NCBI RefSeq assembly: GCF_009712035.1
Contig: NZ_VILB01000004.1
Coordinates: 1 to 64,000 of the forward strand
Direction of reading: 5' to 3'
From: Anabaena sp. UHCC 0187
Lineage (GTDB): Bacteria > Cyanobacteriota > Cyanobacteriia > Cyanobacteriales > Nostocaceae
DNA: 64,000 bases
Shown here: in pieces, positions 280-10,200 of the stretch
Position numbering within the stretch: the first letter of the stretch is position 1
Layout: the number at the start of each line of letters is the position of its first letter
Made by a program: the position numbers and the translations under genes
Notes under the pieces: generated by a model
What the model was told of the DNA's origin: nothing
Database searches by the model: none
What the model saw: only the letters and a program-made list of their open reading frames with translations

Positions 280-1356
280 TCATAATTCAGGTAGGTGAGA
301 TTTCTTCACAGAACCCAGATAATGATCTAAAAGCACTTTAGGGTTATGCCCAGTAATTGAAGCAACCTCAGCCACAGTTAACCCGCTATCAACACAGTGG
401 CTAACAAATGTATGCCTAGTGGTATATAAAGCCCTATGTTCAATATTTAAAGCCTTGAGAGTATTTCTCCAGCATCTTTGACTTAGGGTGTGGTCATCTA
501 TCGGTAGACCTTTTAAAGAAGTAAATACCAACTCATCCTTACCTCCTTTAGGTCTTTTAATTAACATTTGATAAACATTGTTGTTAATTGGTACAACCCT
601 ATATTTACCAGTTTTAGTAGTCTTGCGCTCCCTCCTGTTGCTACTACCTTTACTTCTGCCTAGAGATTCATAGATGTGCAGCTCTCTTTTGGTCAGATCA
701 ATATTCTTCCACTGCAAACCTATAGCTTCAGAAGTTCTAAGCCCTGTGTTGAAAAGTAGAAGTATAAAGTCATGATAGATGGAGTAATGTTTACTATCTC
801 GAAGATAAGCCAGTATCCTTGTGACCTCAGCTTTTGTGAATGGTTTAGCCATTGGAGTTTGAGGAACCTTTACTTCTAGTTCCCCAAATATGTCTCTTCG
901 AGTTGCTTGCAGAATAGCTAGATATCTTTTTCTACTAGAGGGTTTTAGTTCTCTAGTATCCGATAGCCATTTCATAAAAGCTTTGGCATCTACTTTAGTC
1001 TTAATTTCCTTCCCATAAGCTTTAATCAGCTTTATTAAAGCAAAATCAGCATTGTTATAGGCTTCTACAAGACGCTCTTCAAGTAAGGAAACCAAGGGAG
1101 GGAAGTTCGGTTCAGCAGGCTTTGAGTCACCATTACCGGAGTAAGTGATTCCTTGTAGCCACAAGTTGTACCTATTAAGACTGGTATCAAACTGATTTAA
1201 AAGGCAATCCTGGTATATTAACTTACCACAATACTCTAGCCTTGCCCTTTCTACTTTATCAGACCACTTTCCCCAAGTTAGGGAATAATCTTTTTCTTGG
1301 TAAGTCCACCTCAGCAGGCATCTATTACCATTCTTTCTGACTTTAAGTTCTTTCAT
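280..1356 (-). CDS. Tyrosine recombinase / integrase
   Basis: A 358-residue site-specific integrase. An N-terminal arm-binding-like region (about 1-75) is followed by a SAM-like core-binding domain (about 85-165) and the catalytic domain. Visible catalytic residues are R207 (NTGLRTSEAIGL), K251 (TGKYR), R314 (YTTRHTF), H337 (TGHN) and nucleophile Y346 (LLDHYLG). The first box II histidine is tyrosine (Y311), as in some phage-type integrases. The ATG is preceded by GAGGG. It is transcribed away from the truncated tRNA-Ala 90 bp upstream, the usual position of an integrase next to its attachment site. It probably mobilises the element that extends left beyond the window. Confidence 0.93.
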   Translation of the reverse strand: MKELKVRKNGNRCLLRWTYQEKDYSLTWGKWSDKVERARLEYCGKLIYQDCLLNQFDTSLNRYNLWLQGITYSGNGDSKPAEPNFPPLVSLLEERLVEAYNNADFALIKLIKAYGKEIKTKVDAKAFMKWLSDTRELKPSSRKRYLAILQATRRDIFGELEVKVPQTPMAKPFTKAEVTRILAYLRDSKHYSIYHDFILLLFNTGLRTSEAIGLQWKNIDLTKRELHIYESLGRSKGSSNRRERKTTKTGKYRVVPINNNVYQMLIKRPKGGKDELVFTSLKGLPIDDHTLSQRCWRNTLKALNIEHRALYTTRHTFVSHCVDSGLTVAEVASITGHNPKVLLDHYLGSVKKSHLPEL

Positions 1357-3313: not shown

Positions 3314-3358
3314 TAACCTGGAATTTGGCTAGACAAGTTAACAACATCCGAAGTTATC

Positions 3359-3386
3359 AAGCAAAACATCGCTTTTGCTTGCACTT
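3359..3386 (+). terminator. Possible terminator after the small cysteine-rich gene
   Basis: Inverted repeat AAGCAAAA / TTTTGCTT with a 6-nt loop at 3359-3380, followed shortly by a T-rich run. The stem is AT-rich, so the call is weak. Confidence 0.35.
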
Positions 3387-3567
3387 ATTTTTATGCTCGA
3401 CTATTTATAACGTTATAATAGACACTATACTAAAACCAGCACAAGCACTCAAACAGGTCTGAGAATATTACAATCTCAGTCAACGAAAACTAGCAGTTTT
3501 TAGAGTGAATTGACTTTTATTCAGTAAAATCACTGAAAATTTCATATTATTCAATACTTGATAGACT

Positions 3568-4401
3568 ATGGCTAAGATGCAACTACATTTCAACGGTAAT
3601 TTTCCTCTCAAAAAAGAAGAAATTAAGAGAATACTTGACGCTACTGCTGAGAAAGAAGGTTTAAAAGATTCTTTAGCAAATCTCATGACCAGAACAGGGT
3701 TAGGTAATGCAAAAGTTGGTAAAATTAAAAGTTGGTCAATTAGAGCAGGTTTAGTTAAAGATAATTATTTGAGTCCAGAAGGAAAAATAGTTTTAAAACA
3801 TGATCCTTATTTAAAATCAATTACTACTGATTGGTTAATGCACTTTTATTTAAGTTTTGGTACTCAAGGTTTAAAGCAAATCCCAGAAAATCCTGCTGAA
3901 TGGGGAGGGTGGACTTATTTTATTTATACTTTTCTTCCTGAAAATTCAACTTTCACTAAAAATGATTTATTTCAAAATAGTATTCCTATATTTGAAGAAC
4001 TAGATAAAGAAATTCCTAAAAGAATTAAGTATATTTTAAAAGCATATACTCAAGAACAAGCATTAGCTAATTGTCAATTTATCAAAGAAATCAAACCAGA
4101 TACATATCAAACAGGGAATTCTAAACTTCCTAATTCTTATTTGATAGGTTATTTCCTAGCTAAACTGTGGGAACGAGATTTTAACAAGGAAACTTCTGTA
4201 TTAACTGATGATATTTTTTCCCAAAAGATGGGAATTATCCCCGTTTTAGGTATTCAATCTGAAACTTTACAACAACACCTGAATAGGATGGAATCTTTGG
4301 GAATTATTGAACAAAGACGCACAGTTTCACCTTATCAAATTATCCGTCGTTGGGATCAACCTATCAAATTATTAGAAAAAGCTTATGGTAACAATCAATA
4401 A
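3568..4401 (+). CDS. DUF4007-family protein of a defence locus
   Basis: A 277-residue protein that I read as DUF4007: an N-terminal FNGNFPL-type motif, an early helix-turn-helix-like region (TGLGNAKVGKIKSWSIRAGL, residues 45-64), then DPYLKSITTDWLMHFYLSFG, matching the family's DPyLe...tlWllHyhL core. A C-terminal winged-helix-like segment follows (LQQHLNRMESLGIIEQRR). DUF4007 genes are known beside PAPS-reductase-like genes in DNA phosphorothioation (Dnd) and BREX type 4-like loci; the biochemical role is unclear. Here the partner genes are missing: 23 bp after its stop comes the opposite-strand RM gene, and a BrxL remnant in the same orientation as this gene follows. There is no strong ribosome-binding site; the ATG at 3577 is an alternative start. 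Confidence 0.75.
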   Translation: MAKMQLHFNGNFPLKKEEIKRILDATAEKEGLKDSLANLMTRTGLGNAKVGKIKSWSIRAGLVKDNYLSPEGKIVLKHDPYLKSITTDWLMHFYLSFGTQGLKQIPENPAEWGGWTYFIYTFLPENSTFTKNDLFQNSIPIFEELDKEIPKRIKYILKAYTQEQALANCQFIKEIKPDTYQTGNSKLPNSYLIGYFLAKLWERDFNKETSVLTDDIFSQKMGIIPVLGIQSETLQQHLNRMESLGIIEQRRTVSPYQIIRRWDQPIKLLEKAYGNNQ

Positions 4402-4424
4402 TTTATCATTTGTAGATATAAAAC

Positions 4425-7400
4425 CTAGAGATTACCCTCAATGATCGCTTTTTCTGCTTCTGTTAACCCATACAACAAATAAACTATTTCATCAATTAAA
4501 CAATCACATCTTTGCAGTTGCTGTTTGATTGGTAAGAGAATATTTAAACTTGATTGATATTCTTTACCTAATGTTTCCTGTTCTTTTCTGGTGGTAAGAT
4601 CAATTTTGATTTTCTTCTTATTTTTCTTGAGAATATCAATTAATTCATCTAAGGTTAAATGATTATCTCCTTGTTTTTGTTTATAATAATCACCTAAATA
4701 ATTTTGAATTTTCGATTTATTGGTAAGATTGTCAATTTCAGTACCGATTAATCTCTCTAACCATGTTAAAAAGCCTTTAATTTCTGTTTGTTTTTGTTTA
4801 TTTAATTCTATCATTTGTTCGGCTAAATATGCGAGGAAATCATGAATTACATCTGCTTCTGATGGTTGTTGGTGGATATGATGGAAATTCTGTAGAAGTA
4901 ATGATCCTAATTGGTGTAAACCAATTTGTATAAGTAAAGGATATAAAAAAACAATCACTAATTCTTTACTACTACTAAGGTGAAGAATAATGTGAGTAAG
5001 TAAGATATCAGCATTTTGATTATTTTGGAATTGTTGGTAAAGGTTAATTGTGTTTTCTAAATATTCTTGATGTTTTTCTGGGGGAGTGATAAAGGAGATT
5101 TTAGGAATTGGTATTCTCTTTAGTGTATTTTCAAAATATTCATAGCGATAATCTTTAGGTTTAGCAATAAAGCGATAACGATAATTGAGAAGGTTAGAAT
5201 TAAGAAGCGCAAGGATAAACTTAATATCAAGTTCTACTTCAGGAATAGGAAAAATAACAGTTGTGTCAGTTAAACTAATGTATTCAGCTTTTTCATCAAG
5301 TGCAAATCTATTTTCTGGTGCAATATATGGGACAATTATTTTAGGTAGATGATATTTGTCTTTATGTAGAGGCCAAGTGTACTTAAACCATTCACAGTTT
5401 CTTCTAATATATGCTGCTCTAGATGTTAAAATATCCTTTTTTTCTTGTAAATACTTTCCAACTCCTTCATCACATTTTAATTCATCCAAATCATTAGGAT
5501 AAATAATATACAAATCTCTAAAATCTAGACTATATTGTTTAATATCTTGATTTTTAATTAGATTTTTAATGCAATTAGATTCAATAGCATATTCTTTGAC
5601 TGTTTTCTCATCTACTATAAAAACTTCGTTAGATCCAGTTTGCATTCCCTGTCCAATGAATGTTATTTCACCTAAAGGTATACAATTATCATCAATAATA
5701 TCTATTATTTTTATATTCTTCAAATAGCCAAGATTCCAATTATCAGATTCCAGCTTTGATTGTTCAACTTCTGCAAAATCTTCAGATATAGAACTATTAT
5801 CTAATAAATCTTCAACTTCTTGTAATTTGATTTCTCTTTCTAATTGAATAAAACGTACTATTTCTTCTAATTTATTGGTTTGTTGTGCTATTTTTTGTAA
5901 AACTGTTATACAGGTTTTAATACCCAGATTTTCAAATACTACAAAATTACCAAAATCAATAATTTCTTGAATGTGCGTATTTTGAAACAAGAAATTTCTT
6001 AAACTATTCGCAAAATGAGCTTCAAGAAAGTAGCGTGATGTAATAAAAGATGAATAACAGTTATTTTTTACAATATCAATTCCGCGTTTGAAGAAGAAAT
6101 AGAATATATCATTTTTACCCATCCATATTTCAGGATAAGAAAGCCGCAAATAATCAGCGTTCATCTTTTCAGGGTTAGTAGTCATCGCATTTGTACCATA
6201 AACCCGTAAAAAATGATCAGCACGTTTCAAACCAAAATATTTAGAAACATAAATATCTAATAACCGTTTATAAGGTTTCGCAGCCTTATCAAATTCCTTA
6301 AATAACCTTTCGCTAGTTTCCACTTCCGCAAAAGTTGCATCACTTAACGTACTCACACCGCGCATAATTTCCGCAGCACGCAATAACCCCACAAATGGAC
6401 CAGTTAATAAATTTAATTGAAAAGCAGATTGTTTTACTTGAAAACCAGATTGGCCACTTTTCTCTTGTTGCATTTTCGCTTCCGCTTCTTTTGCGGTTGT
6501 ACCAATAAGCGAATTTCCACAACGTAAATGATGATCTAAAAAACTCAAAGGTGCGCCAATTGTAAAAGAATGTAACCATAAACTCACCTTTGCTAATTCT
6601 ACCGCCATCGGGTTTAAATCAACACCATAAATACAGCGTTTCATTACCACCCTTTGTAAAAGTTGAGTGTCTTCTAATTTATTGACATCAATAGTAATTC
6701 CCTGTTGTTGCAAATTCTCTAAAATACTATTGCGGGTAATTTCTAACATCTCCAAAACAGGGTTATGTTCAGGATATTCATTTAAAATATTGATTAATTC
6801 ATCAGTTAAAAAATCAACTGCTTCTACTAAAAAATGTCCGCTTCCCATTGCTGGATCACAAATTTTAATATCTAACAGTGTATTTTGTGCAGTTCTTTCT
6901 AAACGTTGTAAATCTTTTTGTAAACCGTTGCGACTTTGTACACCTAACCTACCATCCTTGAAATTTTCTTGAACTTGATTAATTTGCGTCATTAAATCAG
7001 CAAACCTTTGTTTTCTCTCTGCTAAAATTGGTTTGAGGGTATGACTAACAATATATTTAACAATATAATCTGGTGTGTAATAAGAACCTGTAGCTTTGCG
7101 TTCACCTTTATCATTTTCTAAATGGACTTTTACCGTATTTCCATCTTCAACAACTACTCGATATTCTAATAAACCTTCATAAATTGATCCTAATTGTCGC
7201 ACACCTAAAAAGCTGTAGTCAATGGGTAATTTTTCAAACCTTGCTAATTTATCTAAAGCAGGTGCTAACACTGCATCTGATAATTGATGTTCATACAAAA
7301 AATGATTATCTGGATAATCTTTAATATCTTGGTTTTCATGAAAATCAAAATGAAATAAACCGCCATTATAACGAGGTACTTCTAAAGCTGCATCACCTCT

Positions 7401-8438
7401 ATCCACTATTTCAAATAAACCTAATAAACTTCTATAAATTTTGGTGGAAGTTTGACTCAATGTTCTTTGTTTATCAACACTTTCCGCTATTTCTTGGGTA
7501 ATTTTAATCAAACTATAATCACGGTAAGCAGTGTTTATTGGTAATAAATTTCTGGCTTCGGCATATAATAGAAATAATAATTTATATAAAAATGATAAAG
7601 TTGCCGCATAAACTTGTTTTTCTTGGATGGTTTTTCCCCTTCTTACTGCATCTGCAACAAAACCTCCTGCTAAGTCAGGAAATATCTGATCAAATACTAA
7701 TGTTTTTAGTTCGTTTCCTACTTGAGTCGCGTAGGTTGTACTTCCTTCTCTGACTCGTTCTAAAAAGTTTTTATTATAGCTATCTTTTTCAAAAGCTGCA
7801 CGTCTAAAAAATAACCAAAAATATTTAAAGTTTTCTAATTTATCTACATTTTCACTTTCTAATAATTCTACCAAATCAATGGGATAAAATTCTGTTGCAG
7901 TAGAAGACGCTAACCGATAATATAACCGCCATTCTCTCCCATTGGTTAAAATTCCCCAATCAACATTTGTACCTGTTAAATAACTGGAAATTTGAAAAGA
8001 TGGGTTTTCATTTTTGAAAATATCCCGCTTATCATTAGCAGAAACTTTACTTAACTGTCTTTCCCAATATTTAGCTTCTGCTATGGCTAATACTTGAGTA
8101 TAAAAAGCAGTTTCATTAGTTTGTAATGTGTAAGCAATATCTCTTGTTTCTGTGTTAGAAAATAAGGCATAATCAGGACGTTGGGATCTACCTTTTCCAC
8201 GAGTGACTACTTGAGTAATGTATTTAAACCCTAATATTTTTAATACAGGTTTAATAAACTCTTCTTCTGTTTGGGATTCGTTTAATGTGGGTAAAATGGC
8301 TTTTTTGGCAAAATAGAGTTTATTTAATTGCTCAAATTCTGAGGTAATATCTAATTGCCATTCTGGTAATTCTTGAATCCGAAATTTTAAATAATGTTGA
8401 GAAAATAAGGGTTTATTGGGTTTTTGTGTATCTGTCAT
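4425..8438 (-). CDS. Type IIG-like restriction-modification protein lacking motif NPPY
   Basis: A 1337-residue single-chain RM-type protein. An N-terminal PD-(D/E)XK nuclease (RPDYALF with D89, then AEAK with E121 and K123) is followed by a helical spacer, motif X SYYTPDYIV, SAM-binding motif I DPAMGSGHFLVEA (about 528-540), the conserved NPMAVELAKVSLWL/GNSLIG block, and a C-terminal target-recognition half. The N6-adenine catalytic motif IV (NPPY/F/W) is absent. The chain jumps from TNPEKMNADY (about residue 757) straight to LRLSYPEIWMGKNDIFYFFF, where relatives carry the FHW.LEFPE...GNPPY segment, so an in-frame deletion near 6155-6165 is likely. AGGAG lies 9 bases before the ATG. The start abuts the BrxL fragment head-to-head, leaving no separate promoter region. 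Probably methylation-defective; nuclease status is uncertain. Confidence 0.88.
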   Translation of the reverse strand: MTDTQKPNKPLFSQHYLKFRIQELPEWQLDITSEFEQLNKLYFAKKAILPTLNESQTEEEFIKPVLKILGFKYITQVVTRGKGRSQRPDYALFSNTETRDIAYTLQTNETAFYTQVLAIAEAKYWERQLSKVSANDKRDIFKNENPSFQISSYLTGTNVDWGILTNGREWRLYYRLASSTATEFYPIDLVELLESENVDKLENFKYFWLFFRRAAFEKDSYNKNFLERVREGSTTYATQVGNELKTLVFDQIFPDLAGGFVADAVRRGKTIQEKQVYAATLSFLYKLLFLLYAEARNLLPINTAYRDYSLIKITQEIAESVDKQRTLSQTSTKIYRSLLGLFEIVDRGDAALEVPRYNGGLFHFDFHENQDIKDYPDNHFLYEHQLSDAVLAPALDKLARFEKLPIDYSFLGVRQLGSIYEGLLEYRVVVEDGNTVKVHLENDKGERKATGSYYTPDYIVKYIVSHTLKPILAERKQRFADLMTQINQVQENFKDGRLGVQSRNGLQKDLQRLERTAQNTLLDIKICDPAMGSGHFLVEAVDFLTDELINILNEYPEHNPVLEMLEITRNSILENLQQQGITIDVNKLEDTQLLQRVVMKRCIYGVDLNPMAVELAKVSLWLHSFTIGAPLSFLDHHLRCGNSLIGTTAKEAEAKMQQEKSGQSGFQVKQSAFQLNLLTGPFVGLLRAAEIMRGVSTLSDATFAEVETSERLFKEFDKAAKPYKRLLDIYVSKYFGLKRADHFLRVYGTNAMTTNPEKMNADYLRLSYPEIWMGKNDIFYFFFKRGIDIVKNNCYSSFITSRYFLEAHFANSLRNFLFQNTHIQEIIDFGNFVVFENLGIKTCITVLQKIAQQTNKLEEIVRFIQLEREIKLQEVEDLLDNSSISEDFAEVEQSKLESDNWNLGYLKNIKIIDIIDDNCIPLGEITFIGQGMQTGSNEVFIVDEKTVKEYAIESNCIKNLIKNQDIKQYSLDFRDLYIIYPNDLDELKCDEGVGKYLQEKKDILTSRAAYIRRNCEWFKYTWPLHKDKYHLPKIIVPYIAPENRFALDEKAEYISLTDTTVIFPIPEVELDIKFILALLNSNLLNYRYRFIAKPKDYRYEYFENTLKRIPIPKISFITPPEKHQEYLENTINLYQQFQNNQNADILLTHIILHLSSSKELVIVFLYPLLIQIGLHQLGSLLLQNFHHIHQQPSEADVIHDFLAYLAEQMIELNKQKQTEIKGFLTWLERLIGTEIDNLTNKSKIQNYLGDYYKQKQGDNHLTLDELIDILKKNKKKIKIDLTTRKEQETLGKEYQSSLNILLPIKQQLQRCDCLIDEIVYLLYGLTEAEKAIIEGNL

Positions 8439-8440
8439 GA

Positions 8441-9454
8441 TCCCGACTCCTGAACAATGGTAATTTTAAAGTATCTGTTACTGATTTTGATCCCTTCCAA
8501 TCATCGGAAGTTGATCTACAAGAATATGTAGAATGTCATTCTCATTTTACCACAGAACAATGGCGAAATTTGATGTTTTGTTCAATGGGTTTTAATCCCA
8601 ATCATCCGAGTTATAATTATCGAGCAAAAACCTGGATTTTAACTCGGTTACTTCCCTTAGTAGAATCTAATTATCACCTCATAGAATTAGCTCCGAAAGG
8701 AACAGGAAAAAGTTTTGTTTATGAAAATATTAATAATAAAGTTTCTGTAATTAGTGGAGGTAAAATCACTCCTGCTAAACTATTCATTGATGGTAAAACT
8801 AAATCAGTTGGTTTATTAGGTCGTTACGATGTAGTAGTTTTAGATGAAATTCAAAGTTTAACATTTGATAATCCTGATGAAATTATCGGACCATTAAAAA
8901 CCTATCTTGCGAATGGAAGTTATAATCGTTCAGGGTTTTCTGATATTCCTATTTCTAGTGATTGTTCTTTAGTATTATTAGGTAATATTGAACTTGATGA
9001 ATATCAACGTCCTAAAGATACATATAATTTAATGGCTAAGTTACCGAAATTCTTCTCAGAAACAGCATTTTTAGATCGGTTTGCTGGTGTTTTACCTGGT
9101 TGGGAAATTCCTAAATTTCAAAGAGATATGATTGCTAATCAAATAGGCTTAAAAATGGACTTTTTTGGGGAAGCATTATTATCTTTAAGAAAAGATGGGA
9201 GTTTTTACCAATATGCTCAACAACATACTCAATTTGATCATCATACTACCATTAGAGATCAACAAGCAATTCTCAAAACAGCATCAGGTTTTCTCAAATT
9301 ACTTTATCCTCATCTTCAATTAACTTTACAAGATTATCAACGCGATTGTTTAGAACCTGCGAGAGAACTTCGTCAACAAATTCGTAATTTATTATATAAT
9401 CTTGATGATGAATTTAAGCAATCTGAAAAAGATATTTATGTTGATATTAAATGA
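8441..9454 (+). pseudogene. brxL: BrxL-type ATPase, 5'-truncated
   Basis: The frame is open from 8441, after a TGA at 8438-8440, and reads as internal BrxL sequence from its first codons (SVTDFDPFQSSEVDLQEYVE, FTTEQWRNLMFCSMGFNP). It continues through the Walker A loop ELAPKGTGKS, the GGKITPAKLF segment, Walker B VVVLDEI and sensor-like LLGNIELDE to a natural-looking end. BrxL is the Lon-related AAA+ protein of BREX phage defence. Roughly the first 200 residues expected for the family are missing, and there is no Lon-like protease domain at the C terminus. No ATG or GTG occurs before 8570; TTG 8570 or ATG 8573 have no ribosome-binding site. The P-loop is intact but the product is probably not functional. 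Confidence 0.8.
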
Positions 9455-9485
9455 TTTTTAAATTTAAAGACGAAAGCTAATAATA

Positions 9486-10103
9486 CTAAGTCTTCCGTTG
9501 TTTTTTCCCATTCCCTTGATTAGCCCTAGATTCTAATGTAAACTGTGGTATTTCCTCAAGTTCATCTTCACTCAAACAATACTGTTCACACACAAGACTT
9601 AAGCGATTTCCCACAGTTGTCACTGCATTTACAGAATGAGTTAAATCACCCTGAAAGTAAATTAAAGAATTGGTTTGCGGTTTAACTTGTCCAACTTGGC
9701 GTTTTTGCGATTTTAGCACCAATTCTCCCCCCTCCATTTCCTCTGGTACGCGCACATAAAGCACGCTTACAAATGCAGGTGGTTCAACAGTTTTACAATA
9801 GGAACGCAAAGACCTGTCAATATGGGGGTCAACGCGCGAACCTGCTTTGAGGAGTAAAGGATTCAGATAAAAAGCATTACAATTAGGCAAAAGTGCCAAA
9901 TCTAAATAAGGCTTGAAATAGGGAAATTTTTGGGTAACTTCTGCTAAACCCTGACGCTGAAATACTACAGAAAAGCCTTTAGTATTAATAAAATCTCGAT
10001 TAAGGTTATTAATAGCAAAATAGGGACAAGCTTGGATTTCTCCCCACAAGTCCTGGAGATATTGAAGAGGAAAGGCGTTAGGATGTTGTTGATAGTATTT
10101 CAC
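9486..10103 (-). CDS. 2-oxoglutarate/Fe(II)-dependent oxygenase-like protein
   Basis: A 205-residue jelly-roll oxygenase of the prolyl-4-hydroxylase-like superfamily. The Fe-binding triad is visible as H-x-D in DPHIDRS and the distal H in GDLTHSVNAV, followed by the 2OG-binding arginine in VGNRLSLVCEQY. The core reads VSVLYVRVPEEMEGGELVL, with the usual EGGEL strand. The substrate cannot be told. It has a lysine/arginine-rich tail (GNGKKQRKT). It is a single gene, converging with the BrxL remnant and followed upstream by a repeat-rich gap and tRNA-Cys. Confidence 0.87.
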   Translation of the reverse strand: MKYYQQHPNAFPLQYLQDLWGEIQACPYFAINNLNRDFINTKGFSVVFQRQGLAEVTQKFPYFKPYLDLALLPNCNAFYLNPLLLKAGSRVDPHIDRSLRSYCKTVEPPAFVSVLYVRVPEEMEGGELVLKSQKRQVGQVKPQTNSLIYFQGDLTHSVNAVTTVGNRLSLVCEQYCLSEDELEEIPQFTLESRANQGNGKKQRKT

Positions 10104-10114
10104 GGTCAGTTAAA

Positions 10115-10200
10115 TTAATTCTCGTCTGATAGCGTAGCGTGGCGCAAGCCATATCAAGATTTACAGTTACTTCGACTTCGCTCAGTAACCGTATATTCTG
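10115..10200. repeat. Cyanobacterial interspersed palindromic repeats
   Basis: Two repeat words typical of Nostocales intergenic regions: agcgtagcgtggcgcaagcc near 10129-10148 and the near-palindromic ttacttcgacttcgctcagtaa near 10165-10190. No gene lies here. Confidence 0.5.

Follow-up and report, generated by a model that had tools for sequence, protein, structure and literature searches.

BREX type 4, Ssp (SspABCD-SspE) and Dnd (DndABCDE) are the described defence systems closest to a decayed operon near the start of contig NZ_VILB01000004.1 (C44) of Anabaena sp. UHCC 0187, whose genome of 5.1 Mb is in 57 contigs. The window, that is the whole stretch of 64,000 nucleotides analysed, forms the start of this contig. 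In the excerpted text of PMC12839542, type 4 BREX has a 3'-phosphoadenosine-5'-phosphosulfate (PAPS) reductase in 406 of 457 taxa, with 11% lacking it, and neither 'DndE' nor 'DndD' occurs at the start of a word; no paper joining BREX, dndE and Nostoc was found in the open-licence literature. Mobile restriction-modification (RM) genes provide a further precedent. In the portion of the PaeR7I study available (PMC3031569), most products of movement were linked to insertion sequences, and a minority (2/28) had joints with 1–3 bp of identity. In the window, the core of a BREX type 4-like operon is missing and a solo type IIG-like RM gene stands in its place. We give a probability of about 0.8 to the reading that the core was exchanged for this gene by way of a composite from another lineage, which would have entered through homologous recombination in both arms.

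Open reading frames (ORFs) and profiles give the following gene order in the window:

3568 to 4401, forward strand: DUF4007/SspB-like gene, 277 amino acids (aa), intact, from the ORF list and profiles
4425 to 8438, reverse strand: type IIG-like RM gene, 1337 aa, with an HSDR_N-like nuclease, an N6 methyltransferase and a TaqI-type recognition domain
8441 to 9454, forward strand: remnant of the BrxL ATPase gene, 337 open codons, APKGTGKS kept and the N-terminal domain gone

All three frames are open. Their places and families, as called in the first-pass annotation from the sequence, were borne out by ORFs, Pfam, a TIGRFAM model and PADLOC profile searches. The DUF4007 protein matches PF13182 (E 1.2e-10; 41.4 bits against a cut-off of 27) and, in PADLOC, SspB; a structure-database search gave no solved relative for it (best E 0.45). 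The RM protein matches Eco57I (1.8e-19), TaqI_C, N6_Mtase and HSDR_N, and the structures 8cxz, 7lni and 7qw5. The open BrxL frame follows directly on the stop just 5' of 8441, so that its 337 codons exceed the 294-aa ORF listed with a TTG start at 8570. The remnant matches PF13337 (1.9e-109), TIGR02688 (1.1e-106, from model position 144), the PADLOC BrxL models and the structures 8emc/8emh. Relative to the 485-aa BrxL of the same-genus genome G045 it has lost ~152 N-terminal codons; the APKGTGKS that it retains is presumably its Walker A motif.

When the BrxL remnant was searched against 217 genomes of the family, 58 matched, its own included. Loci were fetched from 37 of the 57 others, the unfetched ones being mostly 27–41% matches, and after L098 and L104, with a more distant BrxL, had been set aside, 35 loci were annotated with profiles built from the better copies. 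An undeleted operon was found in two genomes of the same genus, G045 and G053, where DUF4007 (277 aa) is followed by a 145-aa protein, a BrxC-like ATPase (1566/1565 aa), PglZ (738 aa) and BrxL (485/478 aa). A third, G048, has PglZ, a shorter BrxC (1325 aa) and a broken BrxL. All five genes are whole in 19 of the 35 loci, three of them with a short PglZ; the script had counted 20, including L096, which was excluded because its PglZ and BrxL are fused. None of the 19 has an additional ORF of at least 80 aa between DUF4007 and BrxL, and hence none has a PAPS reductase (BrxP) there. The predicted ends of the operon, DUF4007 first and BrxL last with BrxC and PglZ between, were thus recovered in relatives, whereas the predicted PAPS reductase was not.

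The parent operon shares with BREX type 4 DUF4007, a BrxC/SspC-like ATPase, PglZ and a short (~485 aa) TIGR02688-type BrxL. It differs in the extra ~145-aa protein, which has no Pfam match at 0.01, in the lack of a PAPS reductase in the 19 complete operons, and in having Dnd-type phosphorothioation genes apart from or around it. The window itself has BrxL and DUF4007, but neither BrxC/SspC and PglZ nor BrxP. The likeness to Ssp lies in DUF4007, which matches SspB models, and in the BrxC-like protein of G007, which matches SspC models (4.9e-18; that of G045 matches BrxC at 1.3e-3), but the parent operon has no SspD. In the excerpts available of PMC6459918 and PMC10853773, PbeA is described as a helicase-nuclease, PbeC as a CxC ABC ATPase and PbeD as a relative of DndE. 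A reading of the parent operon as PbeABCD was rejected, as no match to families of this kind came from any of its five proteins.

What the window lacks is the 145-aa protein, BrxC, PglZ and the N-terminus of BrxL, which together occupy 7.8 kb in G045. Since G045 and G053 keep the operon intact, the core was lost in the window strain. The missing brxC and pglZ, which it had been proposed to look for elsewhere, were not found in the strain's own genome: there was no match to the PglZ profile PF08665, no BrxC protein match in a search made without a positive control, and no DNA match to the operon core. The PF08665 profile might miss a divergent PglZ, as it scores the G045 protein (PADLOC 3e-20) at only 21.8 bits, under its cut-off of 25, so the core DNA search is the stronger evidence for the absence of PglZ.

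Window 3399–4440 and 8455–10165 are homologous to the BREX locus of G045 together with its right flank. The stretch 4440–8458, except for the recognition part, 5113–6146, is homologous to the G045 RM gene, which lies elsewhere on that chromosome. At the left joint the last few RM codons are BREX DNA read in reverse. The arms on either side of the RM gene are mosaic:

3399 to 4345, forward strand: G045/G048-type resident left arm, with most of DUF4007 and the region upstream of it
4357 to 4440, forward strand: G007-type incoming left arm, comprising the DUF4007 3' end and the bases that follow
4436 to 4445 (approximate), no strand: joint between the RM 3' end and BREX, from pairwise alignments
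8455 to 8458, no strand: joint between the RM 5' flank and BrxL, shared with G196, from pairwise alignments
8459 to 8545, forward strand: G007-type incoming right arm, the opening bases of the BrxL remnant
8592 to 9454, forward strand: resident right arm, the remaining BrxL ATPase, G045 type

In 60-base profiles, DUF4007 is 92–100% identical to G045/G048 at 3428–4147, about equally close to G007 over the next ~180 bases, and from 4328 nearest to G007, which belongs to a different genus. In BrxL, the bin at 8501 is 97% identical to G007 against 73% to G045, and from 8561 identity to G045 is 93–100%. Diagnostic sites numbered 103 in the left arm (G045 and G048 alike, against G007) and 126 in BrxL (G045 against G007), 6 of the latter, with neither base, being dropped. 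The left arm is of G045 type at 83 of 87 such sites up to 4345 and at 0 of 16 from 4357; BrxL is of that type at 1 of 23 sites in 8458–8545 and at 88 of 97 from 8592. Among the operon loci that matched, G007 is the best fit for the incoming pieces (92% over 4350–4440, against at most 81% for the six other matched loci; 97% over 8459–8545, against 73% for G045), and G045 is the best fit for the resident pieces (100% and 98%).

Mosaic arms of this kind are the footprint that would be expected of a double crossover. The first-pass annotation had BrxL losing its 5' part exactly at the joint. Comparison of the homology limits with G045 shows the joints to be as abrupt as it described, but the switch points lie outside them, at 4345–4357 (with a mixed zone reaching back to 4183) and at 8545–8592. 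The joints at ~4440 and 8455–8458 are therefore probably internal to the incoming segment rather than sites of exchange in this strain.

A second copy of the right joint is present in G196, from a third genus. Here the 5' part of the RM gene, 94% identical over window 6752–8492, runs through the same joint into BrxL DNA, with 29 of 34 bases just past the joint identical to the window. Its BrxL tail is 82% identical to window 9227–9458 and nearest to those of G197, G005, G007 and G036 (87–89%), and the copy adjoins dxr, the usual BREX neighbour. Residues 1–564 of the window RM protein are 95% identical to G196, against 83–89% for genus-mates and 86% for G066, of another genus.

A history in two steps would account for these features. 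In another lineage, the RM gene, moving as a unit whose limits lie close to its start and stop codons, would have landed in a G007/G196-type operon, with the DUF4007 3' end on one side and BrxL codon ~152 on the other. The event would have been near-blunt and of an end-joining type, and the core would have been lost. The resulting composite, consisting of the DUF4007 tail, the RM gene and BrxL, would then have passed into this Dolichospermum, where homologous recombination would have put it in place of the resident core; the crossovers would lie at ~4345–4357 in DUF4007 and at 8545–8592 in BrxL. Like PaeR7I, as far as the available portion of that study goes, this is a single-ORF RM gene found in several settings (five here), with homology ending near the ends of the ORF and joints sharing few bases, as in the minority products there; its last move differs from the IS-linked majority in having apparently used the homologous arms of another defence operon, and no transposase gene stands at the joints in the window. 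The locus would be a case, resolved nearly to the base, of one defence system displaced by another through recombination in shared flanking genes, and not by a transposon or phage. A plasmid source for the segment was considered and rejected: the 7 records that match do so over only 2–3% each of window 4340–8600.

Several points weigh against this history. The left switch is not clean, as four G007-type sites lie among G045-type ones at 4183–4299, and the exchange there may have been ragged or have started earlier. The shuffle test, in which 0 of 2000 shuffles gave a switch as strong in either arm, takes sites as independent. An assembly chimera may be the source of the joints, although mosaic arms would be odd for one. 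No donor operon with G007-type arms around this RM gene was found, and G196 has no DUF4007 in the stretch fetched, while its RM gene is broken, with most of it absent. Finally, the G196 RM part is 94% identical against 82% for its BrxL tail and 29/34 for the bases past the joint, a mismatch which means that a single inherited composite needs either a later exchange of RM sequence or two landings at one spot.

The second of these options, a homing-like insertion of the RM gene at a fixed spot in brxL, made independently in G196 and in the donor of the window strain and followed by separate losses of the core, would explain why the joint is identical even though its RM and BrxL sides have diverged differently. 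We regard it as unlikely. Other truncated BrxL copies start elsewhere, no repeat family among those listed (25 of 31 inverted, 20 of 26 direct) has one arm at each end of the RM gene, and exchange of part of the RM gene within an older composite is the simpler explanation.

The two-step history also has to be set against a direct jump, in which the RM gene would have moved from its usual site in the same genome into the operon, deleting the core. Of the 16 genomes of the genus, 13 have the RM gene, one copy each; it is interrupted in G049 and lies as two pieces on two contigs in G052, and it does change place within the genus. Five settings can be told apart:

Setting 1, F4/F5/F0-RM-F3: G045, G053, G049 and G055; G056 and G052 with a partial neighbourhood on the contig
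Setting 2: G047 (and a piece in G052)
Setting 3: G044, G050, G051 and G057
Setting 4: G046
Setting 5: the window

Between settings, homology runs no further than ~30 bases 5' of the start codon and 67 bases 3' of the stop; the former limit leaves aside G046 and G049, which have displaced starts. In the window genome, the first and frequent site is empty, the matches to F5 and F3 being 17 bases apart, which would suit a gene that had left it. However, F5 and F3 are also close (~460 bases apart) in G058, which has no RM gene, so the empty site may be old. Moreover, both BREX ends touching the RM gene are of the G007 type and not of the resident G045 type, and the N-terminal part of the RM protein is nearer to G196 than to genus-mates, leaving the direct jump quite improbable. 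Elsewhere, a scan of GTDB contigs with the RM gene gave two loci, both in Dolichospermum, and among the further matches listed (E up to 1e-30) there were paralogues of 28–34% identity or pieces of the same RM gene.

The RM protein has the type IIG layout, with HSDR_N, N6_Mtase/Eco57I and TaqI_C in order; REase_MTase_IIG models match it, and its two best PADLOC hits are DrmMI. Its recognition part stands out:

5113 to 6146, reverse strand: target recognition domain part of the RM gene, with no close relative among the loci compared (20–28% identity) and with motif IV missing at its N-terminal edge

Methyltransferase motif IV has the form N/D/S-PP-Y/F/W. The window protein contains no [NDS]PP[YFW], and the segment with GNPPY of six compared copies from the genus is absent from it. 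Among homologous RM frames of at least 400 aa, 42 of 51 match [ND]PP[YFW], though the 51 include many repeat fetches of one gene. The nine without it are seven copies of the window gene, the 775-aa fragment in L142 and the truncated frame of G196; in L137, counted among the 42, the match is a spurious earlier NPPF, with another NPP near the expected place. The earlier proposal that a recombination swapped the core for a type IIG-like cassette is supported by the core loss and by the mosaic arms with their switch points; with motif IV missing, an exchange for a working RM gene is doubtful.

With BrxC and PglZ not found, the N-terminus of BrxL gone and the RM gene lacking motif IV, no defence would be expected, and the locus is probably without defence function now. 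The ratio of nonsynonymous to synonymous substitution (dN/dS) against G045 is 0.05 for the BrxL remnant and 0.36 for DUF4007, compared with 0.09 and 0.34 for the G045–G053 pair, which suggests a fit with recent loss but cannot separate recent loss from kept function. A working reduced system, with DUF4007 as scanner, the type IIG-like protein as effector and BrxL as ATPase motor, is very improbable, for although every frame is open and the dN/dS values are not raised over those of G045–G053, recent truncation yields the same ratios, the methyltransferase lacks the motif IV that complete homologues of other genomes have there, and the composite copy in G196 is broken further.

At some of the loci in this family, the operon stands beside dnd genes. 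In 12 of the 35, dndE is on one side of the whole or decayed operon and dndD on the other (L078, L084, L086, L087, L088, L089, L092, L093, L095, L096, L099 and L103), and L102, a thirteenth dnd-linked locus, has dndE only. The window strain resembles Dnd systems in that DndB, DndC, DndD and DndE are grouped on its contig C54, DndE and DndB being confirmed by Pfam, but its dnd genes are a separate cluster, away from the operon and uninterrupted by it. Ten genomes with an operon or the remains of one were tested, and each has exactly two PF01507 proteins, one of 237–277 aa and one of 536–571 aa. The longer one is located with DndB, DndD and DndE; in seven other genomes, G005 and G081 being left out, it shares 66–87% identity with the DndC-like protein of G215. 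In three scanned loci (L079, L081 and L083) a class-V aminotransferase (cysteine-desulfurase-like) gene follows BrxL.

These associations point to a BREX type 4-like operon that, in this family of cyanobacteria, is linked to Dnd and has no PAPS reductase. A tentative extension, which we hold to be possible but rather less than even in probability, is that the parent operon supplies the restriction side of a Dnd-BREX hybrid not yet described and that its end genes serve as homology arms of a defence exchange slot used across genera. DndBCDE would make the phosphorothioate mark, and DUF4007, the small protein, BrxC, PglZ and BrxL, with no PAPS reductase of their own, would act on unmarked DNA; defence genes such as this RM gene would be swapped between the conserved end genes across genera. 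If true, the dnd modification genes of the window strain would have lost a possible restriction partner.

Two observations concern the dnd genes themselves. The window-strain DndC (L149:11214-12827) has SWGKDS where the relatives compared have SGGKDS. Near the dnd genes, at L149:16577-18649, lies a second SMC/AAA-type ATPase of 690 aa, possibly part of a CxC/Pbe-like module.

In G045 and G048 the right flank matches that of the window, but the left flank differs:

3332 to 3398, no strand: left break, where a small ORF and an mnmE-like gene replace dxr 5' of DUF4007

The gene 5' of DUF4007 is dxr in G045, G053, G048, G005, G006, G007 and G168 (Pfam was run on the G045 copy). The genes in this position in relatives were considered as operon members and rejected, since Pfam gave dxr and a mannosyltransferase-like gene. 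The order of a small ORF and the gene that we take to be mnmE-like upstream of DUF4007 is common to the window and G058. A tyrosine integrase (window 280-1356) adjoins the mnmE-like gene and is also shared with G058.

Other variants of the operon were seen among the relatives. A 'mini-PglZ' of 201–219 aa is present in five genomes (L036:5478-6137, L037:11965-12615, L038:12846-13502, L039:1601-2248 and L097:2155-2760). In L036–L038, which were compared, it keeps the first ~70 and last ~122 residues of PglZ while the middle, with the PglZ domain, is gone, and the remaining four operon genes are whole beside it. At the other extreme, L083:7351-12054 encodes a 1567-aa PglZ that carries a NERD nuclease domain at its N-terminus as well as protein kinase domains, resembling the description of BREX type 2 PglW; PglZ proteins of similar length occur in L082, L085, L090 and L094 (domains were scanned in L083). 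Further decayed operons, among L096, L099, L100, L102 and L103, show PglZ fused to BrxL, BrxC joined to BrxL next to a short DUF4007, and split frames. In G006 (L035:13685-14650), the position that the RM gene has in the window is taken by an IS630-type transposase gene, with DUF4007 on one side and a truncated BrxL on the other.

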